Of a stretch of 64,000 bases of DNA, positions 38,194 through 60,974 are shown piece after piece; position 1 is the stretch's first letter, and each line of letters begins with the position of its first letter. The position numbers and the translations under genes are program-made. Source of the stretch: Lentibacillus sp. Marseille-P4043 (lineage in GTDB: Bacteria; Bacillota; Bacilli; Bacillales; Amphibacillaceae); NCBI RefSeq assembly GCF_900258515.1, contig NZ_LT984884.1, positions 2,639,353-2,703,352 of the forward strand, in the 5' to 3' direction. The notes under the pieces were generated by a model. That model ran no database searches, was not told the DNA's origin, and saw nothing but the letters and a program-made list of their open reading frames with translations.

Positions 38194-38475
38194 ATGAAAT
38201 TAAATAAACCTGTAAGTAGAACTATATCTATATTAAGCATTAGCCTAATAATCGTAGGTATTATAAGTGTTATTTTAATGTTTATGGACCGTCAAAACTA
38301 TTTAATTTATAGCGAAATTGTGCTGTTTATAGCATTCCTTTTTTTCTTAGGAAGGGGAATCTATTACGTTAAATCTAATAATTATCCGTATGCTATCATG
38401 TGTTTTATCTTTGTAATAATGGCTATGGCTTTAGAAATAGTCAACTACCCACCACTTATCGGCCTTTCGGCCTGA
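38194..38475 (+). CDS. small membrane protein, 3' end inside the IscB element
   Basis: 93 codons from ATG 38194: three hydrophobic helices and short basic loops. The last codons (PLIGLSA-stop) lie inside the hairpin that begins the IscB element. The original C-terminus was therefore probably replaced by insertion. No family recognised. Confidence 0.6.
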   Translation: MKLNKPVSRTISILSISLIIVGIISVILMFMDRQNYLIYSEIVLFIAFLFFLGRGIYYVKSNNYPYAIMCFIFVIMAMALEIVNYPPLIGLSA

Positions 38476-38695
38476 TTGAAGTGGGGGCTTGAAAAAGCTT
38501 TAGTTGTCTAGCCTAAGTCTTCATTGACTACGTTAGTTTGGTTATCACACCCATGGATGATACCCTAGTCCATTGCTCTGTGCCGGCACTGTAATAGTTC
38601 TGAATGGGGAGGAACGGTCAACCGGAATTTGGCGGTATTACCGCAAAGCCTTACCAACATTGGCGAAGGGTAACCACTCTGAGAGGAGGAACACA
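38452..38695 (+). ncRNA. omega RNA and left end of an IscB (IS200/IS605-type) element
   Basis: The left-end hairpin pairs CCACTT with AAGTGG around ATC-GGCC-TTTC-GGCC-T-GAT (38453-38485). Then follow about 200 non-coding bases with GGCTTGAAAAAGC, TAGCCTAAGTC, GTGCCGGCACTG, GGGGAGGAACGGTCAACCG, TTGGCGGTATTACCGC and GAGAGGAGG. IscB proteins use an RNA encoded directly upstream whose guide is taken from the 5' flank of the element. Position, length and block order fit. The exact 5' end and guide cannot be fixed from one copy; the guide should be the roughly 16-20 bases just left of the hairpin. Confidence 0.75.
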
Positions 38696-39970
38696 ATGAT
38701 AGTGTTCGTTATCAATAAGCATGGCAAGCCTTTAATGCCGTGCAAACCAAGAAAAGCAAGATTGCTGCTCAAAGAAAAGAAAGCAAAAATTGTTTCCCGC
38801 AATCCATTTGGAATTCAATTATTGTATGAAACCAATAGTTACACACAGGAAGTGAAGATTGGCATTGATTTAGGAGCGAAATATGTTGGCATCGCCATTA
38901 CGAGCGAAGACAAGGTGCTAGCCAAAGGGGAAGTGGAGCTTCGCCAGGATGTCAAATCTGCCATTGATACCAGAAGAACATACAGACGTTCCAGAAGAAA
39001 CAGGAAAACACGTTATCGTAAACCGCGTTTTCAAAATCGTACCCGCGGAAAAAGATGGTTGCCGCCGAGTATACAAAGCCGGGTGGAGAATACTTTCTTT
39101 TGGATTGACAAGTTTTGTGACCTTGTGCCAAATCCTAAGTTGACAATGGAGGTCAGCAAATTCGATGTGCAAAAAATGATTGATCCAGCTATTCAAGGTG
39201 TGGCCTATCAAGAAGGTCAAACGTATGGCTATCATGATGTGCGCTACTTTGTATTGGCAAGGGACCACTATACTTGCCAAGTATGCAAAAAGAAAGGCAA
39301 AATTTTGAACACACATCACATTATATACCGTACACACGGAGGTTCCAATCGGGCAGACAACTTGATTACCGTTTGTACAGACTGCCATACACATGACAAC
39401 CATCAGCGAGGAAACATTCTTTGGAAATGGATGGTAGAAGGGAAAAGATTGCCCCAGTACAAAGAAGGTCCGTTCATGAATATTGTTCGTAAGAGGGTAT
39501 TTACCAAGTATCCTCATGCAAGAATTACATACGGATCAGTGACAACACCGAAACGTAAAGCATTAGAATTGGAAAAAACGCATGCAAATGATGCGATTGC
39601 CATCAGTGGTATTTCATCCATCAAGGAAAACGCCAAGACAACGTTCAAAATCAAGCAATTCCGCAAAAAGAAACGTTCATTACACGAGGCAACGGCAAGA
39701 AAGGGACGTAAATCTAAAAACATCACGAGTAAAAGAAATGAAAAGAACAAGAAATATCTTAAGGGATTTTATTTGAATGACAAGGTAAGGTTATATGAGA
39801 AAACCGGATACATTACAGGCTTTACTGGAACAAGTGGTGCTTATGTCAAGTCCATTGATGGAGATTATATCATCATGCCAAATAAAAGCTATAAACAAGT
39901 AAGTCTCAAGAAATTGACACAAATCAGTCATCATAACAATTGGCAGTTTGAATACAAAGCATTTGGCTAA
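38696..39970 (+). CDS. iscB: IscB RNA-guided DNA endonuclease
   Basis: 424 residues from ATG 38696 behind GAGAGGAGGAACACA. Domain order is complete: PLMP domain (Pro12-Pro15), RuvC-I with Asp58 (GIDLGAKYVG), Arg-rich bridge helix (93-120), RuvC-II with Glu152 (LTMEVSKFD), HNH domain with CQVC (194-197), catalytic His pair in NTHHII (207-208), DNLITVC and the second Cys pair (227, 230), RuvC-III HANDA (296-300, Asp299), and a C-terminal RNA/TAM-interaction region. All expected catalytic and zinc residues are present. IscB is the ancestor group of Cas9 and cuts both DNA strands under omega RNA guidance. No TnpA transposase is near, so this copy would move only in trans. Confidence 0.95.
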   Translation: MIVFVINKHGKPLMPCKPRKARLLLKEKKAKIVSRNPFGIQLLYETNSYTQEVKIGIDLGAKYVGIAITSEDKVLAKGEVELRQDVKSAIDTRRTYRRSRRNRKTRYRKPRFQNRTRGKRWLPPSIQSRVENTFFWIDKFCDLVPNPKLTMEVSKFDVQKMIDPAIQGVAYQEGQTYGYHDVRYFVLARDHYTCQVCKKKGKILNTHHIIYRTHGGSNRADNLITVCTDCHTHDNHQRGNILWKWMVEGKRLPQYKEGPFMNIVRKRVFTKYPHARITYGSVTTPKRKALELEKTHANDAIAISGISSIKENAKTTFKIKQFRKKKRSLHEATARKGRKSKNITSKRNEKNKKYLKGFYLNDKVRLYEKTGYITGFTGTSGAYVKSIDGDYIIMPNKSYKQVSLKKLTQISHHNNWQFEYKAFG

Positions 39971-49203: not shown

Positions 49204-50748
49204 ATGGCAGCTAGAGCAGATATAGATTTTCAAAAAGACTTATTTGATGCAGCGACAAAAATGCGTGGTAGTGTGGCGCCGGCTGATTACAAGCATTATG
49301 TGTTGCCGTTGATATTTTTACGATATTTATCGAATCGATATGAAATCAGAAAAGACGAGATTCATAGTTTAGTAAAAGATCCATCAAGTGACTGGTATGC
49401 ACCAGATGAAGATACACAACACATTATCATGGAAGATTCCGATATGTACTTGGCTGAGAATGTGTACGTTGTGCCGGAAGAAGCAAGATGGTCATACATT
49501 CTTAAAAATGCCAAGCAGCCAAACATTAAAGAAATTTTGGATAATGCGATGAAGCGTTTAGAAGAAGAAAATCCGGATTTGGAAGGGATGTTGCCGCGGA
49601 CATTCCAAGGGAGCAACTTGCCACCGGAAAATATTGCAGGATTAATCGAGATTTTTTCACGAGATGTGTTTAGTGCGAACGATGAACGCAGTGTCGATAT
49701 TATCGGGCGCGTGTATGAGTATTTTATAAGTGAATTTGCCTCAACGGAAGGAAACCGCGGTGGTGAATTCTTTACCCCAGCATCGGTTGTTTCTCTTTTG
49801 GTAAAAATGCTGGAGCCAATTAAGGGTACCGTGTTTGATCCGGCGTGTGGCTCAGGCGGTATGTTCATTCAAAGTGAGGAATATGCTCCAAGGCGGAATG
49901 CGTTATCGTTTTACGGGCAAGAAAACGTGACAACGACGGTTCGGTTGGGAAAAATGAACGTGCTACTACATGGGATGAATGCGGATATTCGTCTAGGGAA
50001 TTCGTTGTTGGATGATAAGTTTCCGGATTTGAAAGCAGATTACGTCATTGCCAATCCACCATTCAACCAGGACGATTGGGGAGCGGATCGCATCTCAAAT
50101 GATGATCCTCGTTTAGTTGGACCGGTAACGAACAGCAATGCCAACTACATGTGGATGCAGCATTTCTTTGCCCATTTGAATGAGCATGGAACAGCTGGGT
50201 TTGTTATGGCGAATGGTGCGATGACGACAAACTTAAAGCAAGAAAAACAGGTCCGTGAATGGTTTGTCGATGGTGGATATATTGATTGTATTGTAGCATT
50301 GCCAGAAAAATTATTCCTATCAACTGGTATTCCTGTTTGTCTTTTCTTCCTCAGCAAGACACGAGATGGAGATGGGGATCACCGCGAACGCAAAAATGAA
50401 ATATTGTTTATTGATGCTCGGCAGAAGGGTTCACTCGTTAGCCGGAAGCAAAAAGCATTGTCTGAAGAAGAAATCGCAGGCATTGCTGAGGTTTATCATA
50501 CATTCAAGTTTGATGAAGAAGCTGTGAAAGATGTGGCAGGGTTCTGTAAAGTTGCGACATTGGATGAAGTGAAGGAAAATGACTACAAGCTGACACCGGG
50601 AATTTACGTTGGAACGGAAGAAATAGAGGATGATGGCGTGCCGTTTGAGGAAAAGATGGAGTTCTTGCGCACGAAATTATTTGAGCAATTTGAGGAATCA
50701 GATCGCCTCCAGGAGAAGATTAGGAAGGATTTGGAGGGGTTGGTGTGA
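49204..50748 (+). CDS. hsdM: type I restriction-modification methyltransferase subunit HsdM
   Basis: 514 residues: N-terminal helical domain (to about 160), then the adenine N6-methyltransferase with SAM motif DPACGSGGM (212-220) and catalytic NPPF (284-287, preceded by IA). AAGGAGCGAACGAAAC precedes ATG. The stop overlaps the hsdS GTG by 4 bases. Together with HsdS it methylates a split recognition site; with HsdR it restricts. Confidence 0.96.
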   Translation: MAARADIDFQKDLFDAATKMRGSVAPADYKHYVLPLIFLRYLSNRYEIRKDEIHSLVKDPSSDWYAPDEDTQHIIMEDSDMYLAENVYVVPEEARWSYILKNAKQPNIKEILDNAMKRLEEENPDLEGMLPRTFQGSNLPPENIAGLIEIFSRDVFSANDERSVDIIGRVYEYFISEFASTEGNRGGEFFTPASVVSLLVKMLEPIKGTVFDPACGSGGMFIQSEEYAPRRNALSFYGQENVTTTVRLGKMNVLLHGMNADIRLGNSLLDDKFPDLKADYVIANPPFNQDDWGADRISNDDPRLVGPVTNSNANYMWMQHFFAHLNEHGTAGFVMANGAMTTNLKQEKQVREWFVDGGYIDCIVALPEKLFLSTGIPVCLFFLSKTRDGDGDHRERKNEILFIDARQKGSLVSRKQKALSEEEIAGIAEVYHTFKFDEEAVKDVAGFCKVATLDEVKENDYKLTPGIYVGTEEIEDDGVPFEEKMEFLRTKLFEQFEESDRLQEKIRKDLEGLV

Positions 50749-51977
50749 GTGAGTTTGAAAGGGTTAGGTTAGGGGATTTAGTTGATAGTATTTCGGTAAA
50801 ACATAAGTTTGATAAGGATAAACTTGTCTTTCTAAACACTTCAGATATACTTAACGGTGAAATTTTGCATCATAATTATAATGAGGTATCAAAATTTCCT
50901 GGACAAGCAAAAAAAACGATTAACAATGGCGATATTTTGTATAGTGAAATAAGACCTAAAAATAGGAGATTCGCATTTGTAGATTTTGATTCTGAAGATT
51001 ATGTTGTGTCTACTAAATTAATGGTTTTAAGGGTGAAAGCTGACACTCGGGTATTAGTTAAGTATGTTTATTATTATTTAACTATGGATCAGACAATAAA
51101 TCAGCTGCAGTCTATTGCCGAATATAGGTCAGGGACGTTTCCTCAAATCACGTTTTCTGAGTTATCAAGTTTGGAGATACCATTGCCTTCAATTGATGAA
51201 CAAGAAAGAATTGTTGATATAATTGAGAGCATTGATAGAAAAGAATCATTAAACCATGAAATGAACGAAACTCTCGAAGAAATGGCCATGACGCTTTATA
51301 AACATTGGTTCGTTGATTTTGGCCCATTTCAAGATGGGGAGTTTGTTGAATCGGAATGGGGGATGATTCCAAAGAATTGGGAAATTCATTCGTTATATAA
51401 TATTGCTGATTTCGTAAACGGAAAAGCTTTTAAAATGAAGAACTTGAATGATTTTGAGGGTTTACCAGTTATTAAAATTGCTGAGTTGAAGTCGGGGATC
51501 ACAAGAAATACCAAATTTTATATGAATAAATACGATATGAAACATGAGATCAATGATGGTGGTATATTGTTTGCTTGGTCAGCTTCACTGGGTGTCTATA
51601 TGTGGACCAAAGGAAAGGCTTTATTAAATCAGCATATTTTTAATGTGCAACCTAAAGAAAAATCAAATATTACAAAACCATTAATTTATTTTATATTAAA
51701 AAGGGTAATCAATAAATTTGTATCAATTGCTGCAGGGCGAGCTACGACAATGGGACATATAACGAAACAGCATTTAATTGACGAAAAAATTGCTCTCCCT
51801 ACTTCAGAATTATTGGATCAAATTCAAAAACAGTTGAAGCCATATTACGATCTAATTTTATCAAATTCAAAAGAAATAGAGGAGTTAATTAGTTTACGTG
51901 ATTACCTCCTCCCAAAACTAATCTCAGGAGAAATCGATGTATCAGATGCAGAGGGCATAGTTGACGAAACGCTTTAG
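50745..51977 (+). CDS. hsdS: type I restriction-modification specificity subunit HsdS
   Basis: 410 residues from GTG. Two target-recognition domains (about 1-150 and 205-360), each followed by a conserved helical spacer (LPSIDEQERIVDIIESIDRK and LLDQIQKQLKPYYDLILSNS). The junction contains NETLEEMAMTLYKHWFVDFG. The gene is visibly more AT-rich than hsdM and hsdR, as expected for exchangeable recognition domains. The recognised sequence cannot be predicted. Confidence 0.94.
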   Translation: MSEFERVRLGDLVDSISVKHKFDKDKLVFLNTSDILNGEILHHNYNEVSKFPGQAKKTINNGDILYSEIRPKNRRFAFVDFDSEDYVVSTKLMVLRVKADTRVLVKYVYYYLTMDQTINQLQSIAEYRSGTFPQITFSELSSLEIPLPSIDEQERIVDIIESIDRKESLNHEMNETLEEMAMTLYKHWFVDFGPFQDGEFVESEWGMIPKNWEIHSLYNIADFVNGKAFKMKNLNDFEGLPVIKIAELKSGITRNTKFYMNKYDMKHEINDGGILFAWSASLGVYMWTKGKALLNQHIFNVQPKEKSNITKPLIYFILKRVINKFVSIAAGRATTMGHITKQHLIDEKIALPTSELLDQIQKQLKPYYDLILSNSKEIEELISLRDYLLPKLISGEIDVSDAEGIVDETL

Positions 51978-51993
51978 CAAAGGGGATTTGACG

Positions 51994-54900
51994 ATGAATG
52001 TACTTGGTGAATCGGATTTTGAGGAAACGACGATTGAGCGGCTTGGGAAGTTAGGCTATGAATACTTGCATGGGCAAGAGCTATTCCAGCGCGGGGAGCG
52101 GGACCGCCTGCAGGAAGTAGTGCTTCATGGACGTTTAGCAACTTTTTTGCGGCATTCCTATCCAATGATTCCGACTGATGAAGTTGATCGATTGGCGAAT
52201 GTTTTTGCGTTGAATGAAGGTGTCGGCTGGGAAGATCGGAATTTTTACTTTCACCAGAAATGTGTCAAGGGACTGGAGTTTGTATATGAGGAAGATAACG
52301 AAGAAAAAGTCCAGCATGTTTATCCAATTGATTGGGAACATCCGGAGAACAATGACTTTCTGGTTGTGAATCAATTTTCGATTGAAGGGCGCATGTCACG
52401 TCGTCCGGATGTAGTTATTTTTGTAAACGGGCTTCCGCTCATTGTGTTTGAATTGAAAAATCCGAACAAGGAAAATGTTACCGTACATGATGCTTACAAC
52501 CAGATCCGCAACTATACGCATGATATTTCGAAGCTGTTTGAATATAATGCCTTTACCGTTGTTTCGGACGGGGTGGAAACAATGCACGGGATGCCGTCTG
52601 CTGCATATGATTTTTTTGCTTCCTGGAAAACGATTGATGGTGTGAGCGTGGACAATAATGTGGCGAATACGATGCGAACGTTAATTCAAGGGTTGTTTCC
52701 GAAAGATCGGCTGCTGAATTATATCCGCAATTTCATCGTCTTTTTGGATAAAGGGGATAAGCGGATAAAGATTGGTGCGAAATATCATCAATATTTTGGT
52801 GTGAATTTTGCAGTTGACGAGACTGTACGGGCAACGAGTCCTGATGGTGATCGCCGTATTGGTGTGATGTATCATACGACTGGTTCCGGCAAATCGATCA
52901 GTATGTTGTTTTATAGTTCGATTTTGGCTAAGCATAAACAATTGGATAATCCGACAATTGTTATTCAGGTTGATCGTAATGATTTGGATGTGCAGCTGCA
53001 CGACACGTTTTCGGAAGGCTATAGCTTGATTGGGCATATTCACCATGCGGAAAAATCTGATCAATTGCGTGACTTATTAAAAGGTGAAGGTGGCCAGATT
53101 GTTTTTTCCACGATTGAGAAATTTCGGCTGAAGGAAGGGGAGGCTAAACACCCTGTGCTTTCAGATCGCAGCAATATTATCGTCATTTCCGATGAAGCCC
53201 ATCGCACCCAATCTGGTTTTGATGGTGGATATGCGGCACAATTACGGTATGCGGTGCCAAATGCTTCATTCGTTGGGTTTACGGGTACACCGGTTCAACT
53301 GCTTGGAAACAATACAGAGGAAATTTTTGGTCACGTAATTCACCGATACGATATGGCGCAGGCTGTTCAGGATAAAGCTGTTTTGCCATTGTATTACGAA
53401 AGTCGGATGATTCCGCTTGATTTTGCAGGGGCGGGAATTGATGAAGAGTATGAATCGATTGTTACGGAAATCGGCATGGAAGATGAGGAGTCTGATTCGT
53501 ACAAGTTGAAATGGGCAGCACTGGAAAAGGTAGTTGGGACACCGAAACGTTTACACAAACTTGCGGGGTCTATTTTGGATCATTTTAACGCCGCGGCAAA
53601 TCCGTATCAAAAAGGGATGATCGTCTGCATGAGCAGGCAAGTTGCGGTTCGCTTGTACGAGGCGTTGAAACAGCGGGATGATTGTCCGGAAGTGGAAATC
53701 GTCATGACCGGAAAGATTGCCAAAGATCCGGATAGCTGGCGCAAGCAAAATCCTGGCAGTAAGTATGCGCATATTAAAACGAAAGAAGAACAGGAAGATG
53801 TGAAAAAGCGCCTGAAAAATCCGGAAGATCCGTTGAAATTAGTTATCGTAGTTTCCATGTGGCTGACAGGTTTTGATGCTCCAAATCTATCATTCTTATA
53901 TGTTGACAAACCAATGCACGGTCACAACCTGATCCAAGCAATTGCTCGTGTTAACCGTGTTTTTCCTGGAAAAGAAGGCGGATTGATTGTTGATTTCATC
54001 GGGATTGCCACATCGCTAAAGGAAGCAACGAACAATTATACTGGAGACAATGCGACCAATCAGACAAACATTGACGTGGATGCTGCGGTTGGAATTTTTC
54101 AAAAACATTTAAAAGAAGTGCGCGGACTATTCGGGGCGATTGAACATCGTGATGACTGGCGGGCTTTGCCGAAGATCGAGCGGGACGATTTGATTGCGGA
54201 TTTGGTGAATGAACAGTTAAATGGTGATCCGGAATCCTTTGTTGAGACATGTGTGAAGTTGGAAAAAGCATATAAGCTCATTAAACATCTGCAGGAAATT
54301 ATTCCACTGGCAGATGAAGTTACCCTCTATCAGATGGTGCGTGTCCAAGTGAAAAAGTTGATTTCACCGAGAAAAGTGGGGACAGAAAGCAATGAAACGA
54401 TTGAGGAGCGGCTGAATCAATTAGTTGATAGCCATCTGGAGACGAAAGATCCAGTCGATATTTATCAAGTAGCTGGAATTGAAAAACCTGATATTAGCAT
54501 TTTGGATGAAGCGTTTTTGAAAGATATCGAAAGCAAGCAGGAGCATGAAGACTTACGACTGAAATTACTGCAGAAACTGTTAGAAGGTCATATTACGGTG
54601 AATTTTAAAAAGAACAGTCCAAAAGAACGCCAGATGCGTGAATTGTTGGAGAAAACGCTGACCGATTATCATAACCGGATAATACAAGCGGCTGACGTTG
54701 TACGGATGATGGTGGAAATGCGAAAGGACGTGGATGAGGAAGCTGAATTTCGCGGGGAGCTTGGTTTGAATGATGAAGAGGCCGAATTTTATAAGGCAAT
54801 AACTGGCCTGGAAATGGAATCCTTTGACAATGCGTTCTTGGCGGATCTGATTCATAAAGTGGTCAAAGAGCTGAAGAAAAACTTGAGCCAGGATTGGACA

Positions 54901-55056
54901 AGCGACCACCGTAAAAATATTTATGCCAAAGTAAAAATCTCCGTAAAAAACGTGTTGATGCGCGAGAATATTAAGGGGCAGCAACTGTTGTTTATTACGA
55001 ATGCGATTATGAAGGAAGCTGTCGAGCAGTATGGGGATTGGCCGAATGAAGCGTAG
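51994..55056 (+). CDS. hsdR: type I restriction endonuclease subunit HsdR
   Basis: About 1020 residues from ATG 51994, behind AAAGGGGATTTGACG (the frame also opens at TTG 51961). Nuclease centre Asp139 ... Glu153-x-Lys155 (RRPDVVIFVNGLPLIVFELK), translocase Walker A HTTGSGKS (294-301), ISDEAHRTQ (DEAH 400-403), GFTGTP and QAIARVNR. All motifs are intact. ATP-driven translocation and random cleavage of unmethylated DNA. Confidence 0.96.
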   Translation: MNVLGESDFEETTIERLGKLGYEYLHGQELFQRGERDRLQEVVLHGRLATFLRHSYPMIPTDEVDRLANVFALNEGVGWEDRNFYFHQKCVKGLEFVYEEDNEEKVQHVYPIDWEHPENNDFLVVNQFSIEGRMSRRPDVVIFVNGLPLIVFELKNPNKENVTVHDAYNQIRNYTHDISKLFEYNAFTVVSDGVETMHGMPSAAYDFFASWKTIDGVSVDNNVANTMRTLIQGLFPKDRLLNYIRNFIVFLDKGDKRIKIGAKYHQYFGVNFAVDETVRATSPDGDRRIGVMYHTTGSGKSISMLFYSSILAKHKQLDNPTIVIQVDRNDLDVQLHDTFSEGYSLIGHIHHAEKSDQLRDLLKGEGGQIVFSTIEKFRLKEGEAKHPVLSDRSNIIVISDEAHRTQSGFDGGYAAQLRYAVPNASFVGFTGTPVQLLGNNTEEIFGHVIHRYDMAQAVQDKAVLPLYYESRMIPLDFAGAGIDEEYESIVTEIGMEDEESDSYKLKWAALEKVVGTPKRLHKLAGSILDHFNAAANPYQKGMIVCMSRQVAVRLYEALKQRDDCPEVEIVMTGKIAKDPDSWRKQNPGSKYAHIKTKEEQEDVKKRLKNPEDPLKLVIVVSMWLTGFDAPNLSFLYVDKPMHGHNLIQAIARVNRVFPGKEGGLIVDFIGIATSLKEATNNYTGDNATNQTNIDVDAAVGIFQKHLKEVRGLFGAIEHRDDWRALPKIERDDLIADLVNEQLNGDPESFVETCVKLEKAYKLIKHLQEIIPLADEVTLYQMVRVQVKKLISPRKVGTESNETIEERLNQLVDSHLETKDPVDIYQVAGIEKPDISILDEAFLKDIESKQEHEDLRLKLLQKLLEGHITVNFKKNSPKERQMRELLEKTLTDYHNRIIQAADVVRMMVEMRKDVDEEAEFRGELGLNDEEAEFYKAITGLEMESFDNAFLADLIHKVVKELKKNLSQDWTSDHRKNIYAKVKISVKNVLMRENIKGQQLLFITNAIMKEAVEQYGDWPNEA

Positions 55057-56020: not shown

Positions 56021-56089
56021 TATAAGACATGATAGTTGTATAAAACGATGATATAATAATTGTAAAGTGTAAAAGAGGTGGTGTATATT

Positions 56090-56338
56090 ATGAAATGGTC
56101 AGAGGTTAGAAAAATGTACCCAAATCAATATGTTAAACTTAACATCATAGACTTTTACCAAGAAGATGATAAAAAGATTGTAACTGATGTTGCGTTAATT
56201 AATGTTATGGAAGATCCTAAATTAGCTACTAAAGAGTTACTTAAGTCTAAGCGCGATACCATTGTTTACCATACAGGGGCTGAAGAAATCGTAATTGAGA
56301 TGAGAAAAGCAATAGGTTTAAGAGGTATGAGATTATGA
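56090..56338 (+). CDS. partner protein of the retropepsin module, copy 1
   Basis: 82 residues from ATG 56090, behind GAGGTGGTG. MKWSEVRKMYPNQYVKLNII, a long beta-rich middle, then LATKELLKSKRDTIVYHTG and EEIVIEMRKAIGLRGMRL. Its 3' end overlaps the protease start (ATGA). A paralogue sits at 56983. I know no function; the strict pairing and overlap suggest the two products act together. Confidence 0.75.
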   Translation: MKWSEVRKMYPNQYVKLNIIDFYQEDDKKIVTDVALINVMEDPKLATKELLKSKRDTIVYHTGAEEIVIEMRKAIGLRGMRL

Positions 56339-56712
56339 GGTTAGAATTTGTAAATAATTTACTAGAAGTTGAAATGACGATTTCCTACAAAGGAAAAATG
56401 AAAACAATAGATAAGCTTGTTGTTGATACAGGTGCAGCTCATACTCTTATTTCATCTGACGTTGTTGATGAGATAGACATATACTTTAAAAATGGAGATC
56501 CTCTTGTAAGCTCTTATGGAATTGGCGGTGAGGAGTATTCTTTCCGTAAACCAGTTGATTTTATCAAGCTAGACAATTATGAAATTCCAGATATGAAGTT
56601 AGACTTTGGTAATTTAGATGGTTGGGGAATCAATGGACTATTAGGACTAGATATATTAATGAATGGAAAGTTTATCATAGATTTAGGGAAATTAGAACTA
56701 ATCCAAAATTAA
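56335..56712 (+). CDS. retropepsin-like aspartic protease, copy 1
   Basis: 125 residues: catalytic motif VVDTGAAHTLIS (Asp31-Thr-Gly-Ala), flap-like SYGIGGEEYSF, and GINGLLGLDIL (98-108), the hydrophobic-hydrophobic-Gly signature before the last strand. One lobe only, so it should act as a dimer. No signal peptide, hence cytoplasmic. Translationally coupled to the upstream small protein. Substrate unknown. Confidence 0.85.
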   Translation: MRLEFVNNLLEVEMTISYKGKMKTIDKLVVDTGAAHTLISSDVVDEIDIYFKNGDPLVSSYGIGGEEYSFRKPVDFIKLDNYEIPDMKLDFGNLDGWGINGLLGLDILMNGKFIIDLGKLELIQN

Positions 56713-56826
56713 TATTACAGATAAATCTATTGATATCACGGCTGCACAATGCTAGAAATTTTAAAGATTAACATCATGGCTTGGGATAAATGCTATGATG
56801 TTATTTTTTATATTAAAACATCGATG

Positions 56827-56862
56827 TTTGTGAGGTAGTGAACTTAAAGTAACGGGTAGCTT
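56827..56862 (+). repeat. dispersed intergenic motif, copy 6
   Basis: TTGTGAGGTAGTGAACTTAA then AGTAACGGGTAGC, between the two retropepsin modules. Confidence 0.4.
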
Positions 56863-56982
56863 TTCTTTAAGAAGTGTGTGTCTGTTTCGAGTCTTTTGTC
56901 CGCAAAATGAATGGAATTTTATGGGTAGGAGATAGAGCGGTGTGTTAAAATAAAGATATAAAAAGAAGGGGCGGTGAAAAAC

Positions 56983-57243
56983 ATGAAATGGTCAGAGGTT
57001 AGAAAATTGTACCCGGATCAATTTGTAAAATTAAAAGTGTTATCGTCTCATATTGAAAATGGTCAAGAATTTATTGAGGATATTGCCGTTATAAAGCCTA
57101 TATCAAATGAATTGGCAACAAAGGAACTTTTAAAATCAAAAGGTGATGAATTGGTTTATCATACTACAAATGAAAATATTTTGCTTGAAGTTCGTCAGGA
57201 TGTTGGATTAAGGAGATTTGACTATCATGAAAATCAAGCATAA
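56983..57243 (+). CDS. partner protein of the retropepsin module, copy 2
   Basis: 86 residues from ATG 56983: MKWSEVRKLYPDQFVKLKVL, LATKELLKSKGDELVYHTTN and ENILLEVRQDVGLRRF. Clear paralogue of 56090-56338. Intact, although its downstream protease is broken. Confidence 0.75.
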   Translation: MKWSEVRKLYPDQFVKLKVLSSHIENGQEFIEDIAVIKPISNELATKELLKSKGDELVYHTTNENILLEVRQDVGLRRFDYHENQA

Positions 57244-57596
57244 ATATGGGTTGCTTTTAGTTGATATAACTTTAACATTTAACGGAAATAGTAAAGTGAT
57301 AGAAAATATGGTGGTAGATACTGGGGCAGCTAGAACACTAATCGCCCAAGATATTGTTGAAGATATCGGTCTTCAAGTCGAGAATCGTCACTTATTTTGG
57401 AGTTGGTGGTAAAGAGCATGCCTTTAGAAAACAAGTAGATTAAATACAAATTAGTGATTTTATGGTTCAAAAAGTTGAAGTAGATTTTAATGACTTTGGA
57501 TATGATGACATTAACGGATTACTTGGGTTGGATTTGTTAATCAAAGCAGGATTTAATATAGACTTGCTTAATCTTGAAATGAATATGAACGCTTGA
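57227..57596 (+). pseudogene. retropepsin-like protease, copy 2, broken
   Basis: The N-terminal half has an intact VVDTGAARTLIAQ. A frameshift near 57385 leads to a stop at 57412. The other frame then reads TYFGVGGKEHAFRKQVD, meets TAA 57441-57443, and continues GYDDINGLLGLDLLIKAGFN to a stop at 57596. Two lesions make this a true pseudogene of the copy-1 type. Confidence 0.85.
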
Positions 57597-58314: not shown

Positions 58315-58387
58315 TACGTTTATTAGACATAAAACATGCGTTCGTATATAATGAAGATGATTCATCAATTTGAAAGGATGTGGTAAA

Positions 58388-59398
58388 ATGATGGCACAAG
58401 AAGCAGTTCTGGAGAAACCGGCTAATTACCAGGTGAAAAGGCCGGATTATGATGCTCTCTGGAAGAAGTTGATTGAAGAATTATTTGAGGAGTTTATGCT
58501 ATTTTTTGCAGCAGATTTATATGAGCAAATTGACTTTTCCAAAATGCCGGATTTTCTTAAGCAGGAACTGTACAAAGAAATTATTCAGGAAAAGAAAGGC
58601 CGAATGATTGCCGATCAAATAGTGAAAGTGTATTTGAAAAGCGGTGAAGAAAAATGGATATTAGTACATGTGGAAGTCCAAGGTAAAGAGGAAGACGATT
58701 TTGGTAAGCGGATGTTTCGCTATTTTTACCGAATTTATGACCGGTTTGACCGGGAAGTCTACGCAATTGCACTTTTAACGGAACAACAAGCGCAAAATCA
58801 GACGAATGGATTTCACTATAATTTTTATGGCACCAAAATAGATTACACATATAATATATATCATTTTAAGGAAAGCAATATCGAAAAACTTGAGCAGTCA
58901 GCCAACCCATTTGCAGCTGCTGTCATCGCAGGCATTTATGCTAATAAATCAAAAACAAATGCATCTAAACGTTATACGTTCAAACGAAAATTAATGATCC
59001 AAACATTGCAGAAATTCACCTCCCAACAAGAAAAATCTCGCACATACCTATCAGCATTATTTTACTTCATTGATTATTTGCTCCAAGTCCCAAAAGAATA
59101 CAGTCAGCAATTGAAAAACGATATTATTCCATATTTAGGAAAGGAGGTTGCACAGAAAATGCGTGCAGAAAAAACGGATACATCTCAAACTTTGGCGGAG
59201 ATATTTGAAGAGATGAAGCGGGAGGGCATAGAGGAAGGGAGAAAGGAAGGGAAAGAGGACGGAAGAAAGGAAGGAAGAAAGGATTCGTTAATTAAGGTTG
59301 TTAGGAAACTGGTAAAGAAGGGTTTCACAAATGACGAAATAGCAGAAATCACGGAATTAGGAACTGGGGAAATAGCGGAATTGAGAGAATCATTTTAG
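58388..59398 (+). CDS. Rpn-family recombination-promoting nuclease
   Basis: 336 residues from ATG 58388, behind AAAGGATG. The PD-(D/E)XK core spans about 20-130: Asp76 in MIADQIVKVYL and Glu96-x-Gln98 in ILVHVEVQGK, then RMFRYFYRIYDRF. The C-terminus is a charged repeat (KEGKEDGRKEGRKD) plus a small helical module (KLVKKGFTNDEIAEITEL). An internal SD and in-frame ATG at 59159 would give the last 79 residues alone. Rpn nucleases degrade DNA and act in phage defence, held by such intragenic C-terminal products. A duplicated C-terminal gene follows at 59505. Confidence 0.9.
   Translation: MMAQEAVLEKPANYQVKRPDYDALWKKLIEELFEEFMLFFAADLYEQIDFSKMPDFLKQELYKEIIQEKKGRMIADQIVKVYLKSGEEKWILVHVEVQGKEEDDFGKRMFRYFYRIYDRFDREVYAIALLTEQQAQNQTNGFHYNFYGTKIDYTYNIYHFKESNIEKLEQSANPFAAAVIAGIYANKSKTNASKRYTFKRKLMIQTLQKFTSQQEKSRTYLSALFYFIDYLLQVPKEYSQQLKNDIIPYLGKEVAQKMRAEKTDTSQTLAEIFEEMKREGIEEGRKEGKEDGRKEGRKDSLIKVVRKLVKKGFTNDEIAEITELGTGEIAELRESF
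59159..59398 (+). CDS. predicted intragenic short Rpn product (antitoxin-like)
   Basis: Inside the Rpn gene, AAAGGAGG (59140-59147) stands 11 bases before an in-frame ATG (59159). It would produce 79 residues, MRAEKTDTSQTLAEIFEEMK through the C-terminal helical module. The same SD, spacing and MRAE start recur in the separate gene at 59505. That supports real initiation here. Inhibition of the full-length nuclease is inferred from published work on Rpn gene-within-gene systems. Confidence 0.6.
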   Translation: MRAEKTDTSQTLAEIFEEMKREGIEEGRKEGKEDGRKEGRKDSLIKVVRKLVKKGFTNDEIAEITELGTGEIAELRESF

Positions 59399-59504
59399 CA
59401 TAAGTGGAAAGGAAACTGATTGGCTTGATCTTAATTCGTTTCGTTTTCATTATCATGATCGATAATAAATCATCACATATTTAGGAAAGGAGGTTGCACA
59501 GAAA

Positions 59505-59732
59505 ATGCGTGCAGAAGAATTGGATTTATCGCCAACATTGTTTGAAGTTTATAAAGAATGGAAGGAAGAAGCGATAAAGGAAGGGAGAGAAGAAGGGAGA
59601 AAGGAAGGAAGAAAGGATTCGTTGATTAAGATTGCTAGGAAACTGGTAAAGAAGGGTTTCACAAATGACGAAATAGCAGAAATCACGGAATTAGGAACTG
59701 GGGAAATAGCGGAATTAAGAGAATCATTTTAA
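59505..59732 (+). CDS. free-standing Rpn C-terminal protein (duplicated antitoxin-like gene)
   Basis: 75 residues: MRAEELDLSPTLFEVYKEWK, KEGREEGRKEGRKD and the last 35 residues almost identical to the end of the upstream Rpn protein. The DNA from the ribosome site to about 40 bases past the stop (59474-59770) is a direct duplicate of 59131-59436. The nuclease part is not duplicated. It therefore encodes only the putative inhibitor. Confidence 0.8.
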   Translation: MRAEELDLSPTLFEVYKEWKEEAIKEGREEGRKEGRKDSLIKIARKLVKKGFTNDEIAEITELGTGEIAELRESF

Positions 59733-60325
59733 CATAAGTGAAAACGAAACTGATTGGCTTGATGAGTTTCACTTTTAACAAAGATCAAAAAACGGAGGGA
59801 TGTGAATGACTGTTATAAGTCCGAATGAGGCTTAGTGAATGGATTTATAAAATTTTATTTTGGGGGTTTTTACCCTGAATTGCGTGCTATCGGCCCTTTT
59901 TATCTATGTTCCAGGCGTTTGAATCGGCTGGGGTCCGAAAAACTGGCAAAAATGATGAAAGGGAATGAAATCATAAAACAAATACACATTTGGTTTTTCA
60001 GCGATTGGTAAAAGGGGATCAGTGAGGGATTACCTAACGATAAGCTTCACACAATAGGAATAGCTTTTTATTATTTTCTTACTCGAATGCTTATTTAAGG
60101 GATGAAATAAAAACAAATATGGATAAGCAAAAGTCTGCAATTGAATGTAGACTTTTTTAATTTGACTTTTTAAGCAAATGGTTTATATAAGCTAAAAATT
60201 TAAATTAATTTAACAATTCAATATTGTTATGTTAAGATGTAAGTACATTATAATTCAATAACTTTATTGTACTTACGTTATAACATATGCACCGTATTGT
60301 CATTCAAACAAAAATGGATGTGATT
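59733..60325. other. intergenic with a terminator
   Basis: No gene of credible length. A GGAGGG-ATG pair near 59800 opens only nine codons. A terminator at 60129-60158 (AAAAGTCTGCA with TGTAGACTTTT, then T) has no intact gene in front, so a gene was probably lost here. AT-rich promoter-like DNA precedes the TA pair. Confidence 0.45.
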
Positions 60326-60577
60326 ATGATGGCGGATAAAAAGACGCGTAAAGTAACACAGATGGGAAATAGTTTAGGAATAGGTTTGCCGAAAGATATT
60401 GTTGATGCTTTAAACATCAAACGTGGCGATGAAATCGAATTTGACGTGAAGGACAATCGAATGATTTTAAGCAAAAAGAATCGTTTAGAAGACCAGGTGG
60501 ATGTTGAAATGATGAAAATGCTTACGGAAACGTTTAAGGAACATCATCGTGTATTTGAAAAGTTAAAAGACAGGTGA
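60326..60577 (+). CDS. AbrB/MazE-type antitoxin of a Doc module
   Basis: 83 residues from about ATG 60326 (ATG 60329 possible): RKVTQMGNSLGIGLPKDIVD then ALNIKRGDEIEFDVKDNRMI is a swapped-hairpin SpoVT/AbrB DNA-binding domain. The C-terminal helix (VDVEMMKMLTETFKEHHRVF) would bind the toxin. It lies 4 bases before the Doc gene. Confidence 0.88.
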   Translation: MMADKKTRKVTQMGNSLGIGLPKDIVDALNIKRGDEIEFDVKDNRMILSKKNRLEDQVDVEMMKMLTETFKEHHRVFEKLKDR

Positions 60578-60581
60578 TGAA

Positions 60582-60974
60582 ATGAATTATTTATTGGCTA
60601 AAGATGTAACCTTAATACACTTCATCGTCATGAAAAAATATGGGGAGGAGGGACAAGCTGGAATAAAGGATGAGAGGTTGTTAGAATCGGCGGTTCACCT
60701 CCCGCAACAATCTGTTTTAGGGGAGGATGCTTATCCTTCTTTATTTGATAAGGCTGGCGTTTTATTTGAATCATTAGCGGGAAATCATTGTTTTGTTGAT
60801 GGAAATGCGAAAACGGCAGTTGCGGTGCTTGATATTTTTTTAAAGAAAAACGGGTTTAAACTAAAGCAAAATGATCAAGAAATGAAAGAATTTACAACAC
60901 TGGTTGCAGAGGGGCAGGTTCCACTACCATATATTGCTAATTGGCTGGTGGAAAATACGGAAAAAGGTATGTAA
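60582..60974 (+). CDS. Doc (death-on-curing) family toxin with altered Fic motif
   Basis: 130 residues: GIKDERLLESAVHLPQQSVL, YPSLFDKAGVLFESLAGNHC and the Fic loop HCFVDGNAKTAVAVLDIFLK. Doc kinases normally read HxFxDxNKRTA; here the Lys-Arg pair is Ala-Lys. The catalytic His and Asp are kept. Doc phosphorylates EF-Tu; this copy may be weakened or altered. AGGTGATGAA precedes ATG. Confidence 0.88.
   Translation: MNYLLAKDVTLIHFIVMKKYGEEGQAGIKDERLLESAVHLPQQSVLGEDAYPSLFDKAGVLFESLAGNHCFVDGNAKTAVAVLDIFLKKNGFKLKQNDQEMKEFTTLVAEGQVPLPYIANWLVENTEKGM

Follow-up and report, generated by a model that had tools for sequence, protein, structure and literature searches.

Unequal repeat lengths in the intragenic and trailing rpnS copies of a Lentibacillus rpn locus and its relatives: a possible alternate-register cassette

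According to the sections of the preprint of Zhong et al. drawn on here (PMC10327210), a small protein, RpnS, is translated from inside rpn genes and blocks the toxicity and the DNA cleavage of the long product, RpnL, and a plasmid-borne Rpn gives protection against phages. In the window analyzed here, a whole stretch of 64,000 nt from Lentibacillus sp. Marseille-P4043, an rpn gene is followed by a second, stand-alone rpnS. As described below, such a spare antitoxin almost never matches its neighbor in the feature reported to set specificity, and the question raised by this locus is why an antitoxin that would be expected to fit poorly is kept. The layout is not new, since Zhong et al. already reported trailing rpnS genes in E. 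coli, namely ypaA after rpnE and a second rpnCS after rpnC (PMC10327210), in such a way that the window is a new case and not a new kind.

The rpnL locus and its setting

The features of the locus, in window coordinates, are the following:

58324..58352, + strand, promoter-like site upstream of rpnL, TAGACA-17-TATAAT, 11/12 matches
58388..59398, + strand, rpnL, 336 aa, PD-(D/E)XK nuclease of the Rpn/YhgA family with a C-terminal S module
58448..58867, + strand, nuclease core of RpnL, residues 21-160
59131..59430, + strand, first arm of a direct repeat, with Shine-Dalgarno sequence (SD), S module and 3' flank
59142..59147, + strand, intragenic SD of rpnL, AGGAGG
59159..59398, + strand, intragenic rpnS, 79 aa, five four-residue repeat units
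59225..59284, + strand, repeat tract of intragenic rpnS, GIEE GRKE GKED GRKE GRKD, read by eye
59399..59450, + strand, hairpin 3' of the rpnL stop, -13.5 kcal/mol, z -2.76
59477..59764, + strand, second arm of the direct repeat
59488..59493, + strand, SD of trailing rpnS, AGGAGG
59505..59732, + strand, trailing rpnS, 75 aa, four repeat units, divergent first helix, near-identical tail
59571..59618, + strand, repeat tract of trailing rpnS, AIKE GREE GRKE GRKD, read by eye

As had been predicted for this 336-aa frame, an AGGAGG inside rpnL is followed, after a spacing of 11 nt, by an in-frame ATG (59159), with which the last 79 codons begin. The ATG of the trailing rpnS (59505) lies 106 nt 3' of the rpnL stop and has an AGGAGG of its own, with two in-frame stops just upstream of its region and none inside the ORF. 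The two arms of the repeat align at a score of 389, the maximum in 200 shuffles being 37, and the aligned stretch starts ahead of the SD, reaches into the 3' flank and excludes the nuclease core. The predicted duplication of SD, ATG and 3' flank was therefore confirmed, its coordinates being right within a few bases, and the copy at 59505 is, as claimed, a stand-alone duplicate of the C-terminal module only. The net difference between the trailing and the intragenic copy is -12 nt, exactly one four-residue repeat (4 vs. 5 units). The promoter scan, which overall gave 4 sites against a shuffle mean of 4.7, i.e., no enrichment, found none for the trailing rpnS, and no terminator was called at the site of the hairpin.

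With respect to family membership, residues D22, D76, E96, Q98 and R108 of RpnL are conserved in an alignment with E. coli RpnC, RpnE and relatives, and match D11, D63, E82, Q84 and R94 of RpnA in the same order and with near-identical spacing; RpnA stood outside the alignment, and its residues were taken from the consulted portion of PMC5350276. In that source, the RpnA substitutions D11A, D63A, E82A and Q84K lose all phenotypes, and Q84A and R94A are still toxic. E. coli RpnE has all five aligned residues and yet is annotated as inactive, so that the activity of neither RpnE nor RpnL can be read from these residues. The TIGR01784 match of RpnL (E 4e-10, 40 bits) is below the cut-off of 52.1, PF04754 matched 24/69 aligned members and not RpnL, and a profile match to PDB 7th0 (RpnA/RpnAS) was weak (E 0.12). 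The S module of RpnL follows the expected plan, in which short helices accompany a long helix that carries the four-residue repeats, as judged from the repeats and from the helices predicted by AF2 at residues 267-310, 315-322 and 326-335. At E ≤ 0.1, the Pfam matches of the trailing protein include no DUF4351 (PF14261); stand-alone RpnS proteins carry this annotation in some species only (PMC10327210).

Among 94 family ORFs with 270 codons or more, the window included, 83 have a strong SD with an in-frame start at 55-115 codons from the end. The rate is 110 in 5734 codons of this zone vs. 3 in 15,287 codons elsewhere in the genes after codon 50, and in the wider order 19 of 29 ORFs show the motif in the corresponding zone. 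Judged by this motif, an internal start is conserved among these rpn genes. With its active-site residues conserved and its internal SD and start kept in relatives, the locus looks like a genuine Rpn locus.

The setting of rpnL is defense-like, with type I restriction-modification genes at 49204-55056. Between these genes and rpnL, a two-gene unit occurs twice in tandem (56078-57412), with short ORFs at 56078-56338 and 56974-57243; the retropepsin-like ORF of the first copy (56335-56712) is a PADLOC candidate for PDC-M08B, and its short protease-like counterpart in the second copy (57218-57412) is apparently truncated. On the other side, a MazE-like antitoxin ORF (60287-60577) is followed by a Fic/Doc-family ORF (60582-60974), apparently a toxin-antitoxin (TA) pair of mixed origin. 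Elsewhere in the window, a HEARO RNA (RF02033, 102.6 bits) at 38440-38677 lies directly before, and overlaps the start of, an RRXRR + HNH ORF (38573-39970), which we take to be a candidate IscB-type RNA-guided nuclease with its guide RNA.

Trailing copies in other genomes and constraint on them

The comparative search for Rpn loci with trailing C-terminal-only genes, recommended with the original prediction, brought up such genes. From 60 regions plus the window, and then 59 further regions, 102 full-length family ORFs (at least 225 codons; 48 + 54) were collected, the loci being chosen from the best of the matches listed and not at random, and each ORF was probed with its own C-terminus. A C-terminal-only copy was found downstream in 16 of the 102, the window among them. 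Twelve are readable (window, L049, L050, L058, L065, L100, L103, L138, L146, L148, L163, L165; that of L065 at 1090 nt), and four are frameshifted (L137) or decayed (L056, L142, L187). Three further trailing copies appeared among the 29 ORFs of the wider order (L197, L211, L212). Matches in L054, L060 and L093 were not counted as trailing, as they lay upstream, at an edge or in repeats. Loci L049, L148 and L163 have two readable trailing copies each, and in these arrays the two trailing copies also differ from each other in repeat length.

Other S-only genes were seen. Lentibacillus sp. Marseille-P4043 itself has, at L004 1528-1770, an S-like gene encoding 80 aa, which has a strong SD and keeps TTTAGGAAAGGAGG ahead of its ATG, and no nuclease part was detected in the fetched stretch. 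The same holds for an S-only gene of Lentibacillus sp. CBA3610 (L195, a locus also labeled L088), and L089, L090 and L091 (this one at a contig end) showed the C-terminal part only, with more upstream sequence.

Loci L049 and L050 of Virgibacillus phasianinus (species name inferred), at 60% and 55% identity, are among the closest known systems and have trailing copies as in the window; unlike the window, L049 has two of them, and the copies are 15-16 residues shorter or 8 longer.

One explanation for the trailing copies is that they are functionless remnants of partial tandem duplication, in which repeat number drifts. Arrays of rpnS are said to come from tandem duplication (PMC10327210), and the decay or frameshift in 4 of 16 family loci agrees with this, as does a pN/pS of 0.41 for the window pair, which alone decides nothing. 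However, a free copy compared with a constrained intragenic one should push pN/pS towards 0.5 or above, and the 15 readable family pairs gave a pooled value of 0.19 (bootstrap over 12 loci 0.11-0.25), a figure that omits the four decayed loci and is thereby biased down, is uncorrected for multiple hits and is also affected by gene conversion and recency. The value was 0.15 before the repeats and 0.21 after them, and 0.17 without the window. Moreover, the stops in the readable copies of the window, L163, L211 and L212 are all upstream of the start. The readable trailing ORFs thus appear constrained as a class, which is a statement about the class and not about the window alone, and we consider the neutral remnant unlikely, if the least so of the alternatives.

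Repeat lengths of intragenic and trailing copies

When intragenic and trailing copies were compared, a difference in the length of the repeat helix was seen in 34 of the 35 distinct pairs that could be read (18 from the order of the window, 17 from E. coli). In the family, 14 of 15 pairs from 12 loci were unequal (the window -4, the others from -20 to +8, only L103 equal), and 13 of these 14 differ by a multiple of four residues; in L049, L148 and L163 the single intragenic copy was counted in two pairs. The pairs of L197, L211 and L212, read from printed sequences, were all unequal (+4, -8, -8). Left out of the pair count and of pN/pS were L137, L142, L187, L056 and one unreadable copy of L165, and left out as well were the insertion-interrupted rpnC loci L131 and L134, and L215, which is a poor match and not a pair.

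The E. coli systems behave in the same way. As in the window, a separate S gene that has an SD of its own stands immediately after rpnE with its intragenic S (rpnE-ypaA, rpnES), and four-residue repeats set the two copies apart, YpaA of MG1655 having one more unit, although RpnE is only 21% identical to RpnL. In a sample of MG1655 and 14 of 60 listed matches, from 5371 genomes with a match, 15 rpnE loci were read, of which 12 had both copies, giving 10 distinct pairs and none equal. In some strains rpnC (RpnC is 19% identical to RpnL) is also followed by an S gene; among 10 of 50 listed matches plus MG1655, eight loci had readable pairs, seven of them distinct and none equal (that of L129, 40 vs. 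20, read by hand), but, unlike the window, the difference was not a multiple of four in 4 of the 7. RpnA/RpnAS (PDB 7th0) shares with the window the PD-(D/E)XK nuclease and a three-helix C-terminal S, and the consulted sections of PMC10327210 make no mention of a trailing S for rpnA.

Random pairing of the rpnE copies would yield 0.9 equal pairs in 10, with a probability of 0.36 of finding none, so the 0 of 10 observed is about what chance gives and indicates that repeat lengths are uncoupled, without proving avoidance of equality.

This uncoupling bears on the two-antitoxin arrangement that had been proposed, in which the trailing gene is a second cognate antitoxin that raises the dose of inhibitor for the same RpnL. 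The trailing gene has its own SD and an open frame, the tails of the two copies are 32/34 identical, and YpaA has been detected as a protein in E. coli (PMC10327210), all of which favor such a role. Nevertheless, the window copies are one repeat unit apart with a diverged first helix, 34 of the 35 distinct pairs are unequal, and in RpnC one added four-residue repeat abolishes inhibition by RpnS (PMC10327210). A second antitoxin for the same toxin is therefore unsupported and, provided that the RpnC rule is general, the uncoupling speaks against the trailing gene being kept as a matched antitoxin, an explanation that we find doubtful.

Exchange between copies and the role of the trailing gene

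The divergence noted in the first 30 or so residues of the two window copies is real, but it does not correspond to simple clock divergence. Synonymous differences amount to 8.7/14 before the repeats vs. 4/32.3 after them (Fisher p 0.0008, rounded counts), and on these counts the pair is a mosaic. The closest relative in the database, P0008 of Virgibacillus sp. FSP13 (84% identity), matches the intragenic S of the window at 19/19 in the head and 20/34 in the tail, and the two S copies of the window are identical at 32/34 in the tail and 10/19 in the head. Recombination between the copies near the repeats, in the window, would be the simplest reading, the alternative being that the tail was replaced in FSP13.

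Signs of exchange were also found elsewhere. Two of the three single-copy E. coli rpnE loci read (L114 and L116) carry a ypaA-type tail inside RpnE, which fits the "fusion" described by Zhong et al. (PMC10327210), the direction being unpolarized, and the third (L123) has neither tail type cleanly. Locus L069 has its rpn gene and downstream flank in common with L049, and the sequence that it carries just after the repeats is of the type found as trailing copy in L049 (37/39 nt vs. 25/39); beyond the first 13 codons the comparison is non-discriminating (74 vs. 76 of 87). The ypaA-type tails inside RpnE also bear on the proposal that the locus is a step from a gene within a gene to a conventional TA pair, since a fusion would run the opposite way. 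In a conventional two-gene pair the antitoxin lies only outside the toxin gene, and rpnL keeps its S module, SD and internal start, for which reason that proposal finds no support.

That an off-register S pairs non-productively with the intragenic S or RpnL, lowering inhibition and easing nuclease release, seems very unlikely: RpnAS does dimerize through its long helix, which accommodates the repeats (PMC10327210), and the two window copies have the tail in common, but helices that differ in register might just fail to pair.

The observations are better accounted for by an RpnS cassette of alternate register, recombining with the gene, than by a second antitoxin or a step towards a TA pair. 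By analogy with E. coli, from which translation and the DNase and antitoxin functions at this locus are deduced, RpnL would be a PD-(D/E)XK DNase kept inactive by RpnS from the internal start. The trailing ORF would be a duplicated, translatable S cassette with a repeat helix one unit shorter and a first helix derived from a more diverged allele. Its product, having in mind the behavior of RpnC, most likely fails to neutralize the neighboring RpnL as the intragenic S does, and may be kept as a small protein that acts as antitoxin for an RpnL of another register. It may also be kept as a recombination donor, since a crossover between the direct repeats would move the register into RpnL and the intragenic S together. 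We infer both the direction of exchange and this purpose of the spare copy.

Some data go against the alternate-register cassette: the trailing rpnS lacks a predicted promoter and lies behind a hairpin, the register rule is known from RpnC only (PMC10327210), neutral slippage of the 12-nt repeats could give unequal lengths, L123 has neither tail type cleanly and the rest of the L069 tail does not discriminate. All considered, we are evenly divided on whether this Rpn TA/phage-defense gene has as its trailing ORF an alternate-register RpnS cassette, both small protein and recombination donor. The broader idea, that trailing rpnS genes in two phyla are selected as alternate-register cassettes, which protect from nucleases of a different register (those of an earlier resident or an incoming allele) and are donors switching toxin and antitoxin in one crossover, is possible but tentative.

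The uncoupled repeat register between the copies is the observation added here that is worth following. Should recombination of the cassettes indeed switch the register, Rpn would be a defense system that changes the specificity of toxin and antitoxin in one step, comparable to the orphan immunity cassettes of polymorphic toxins.
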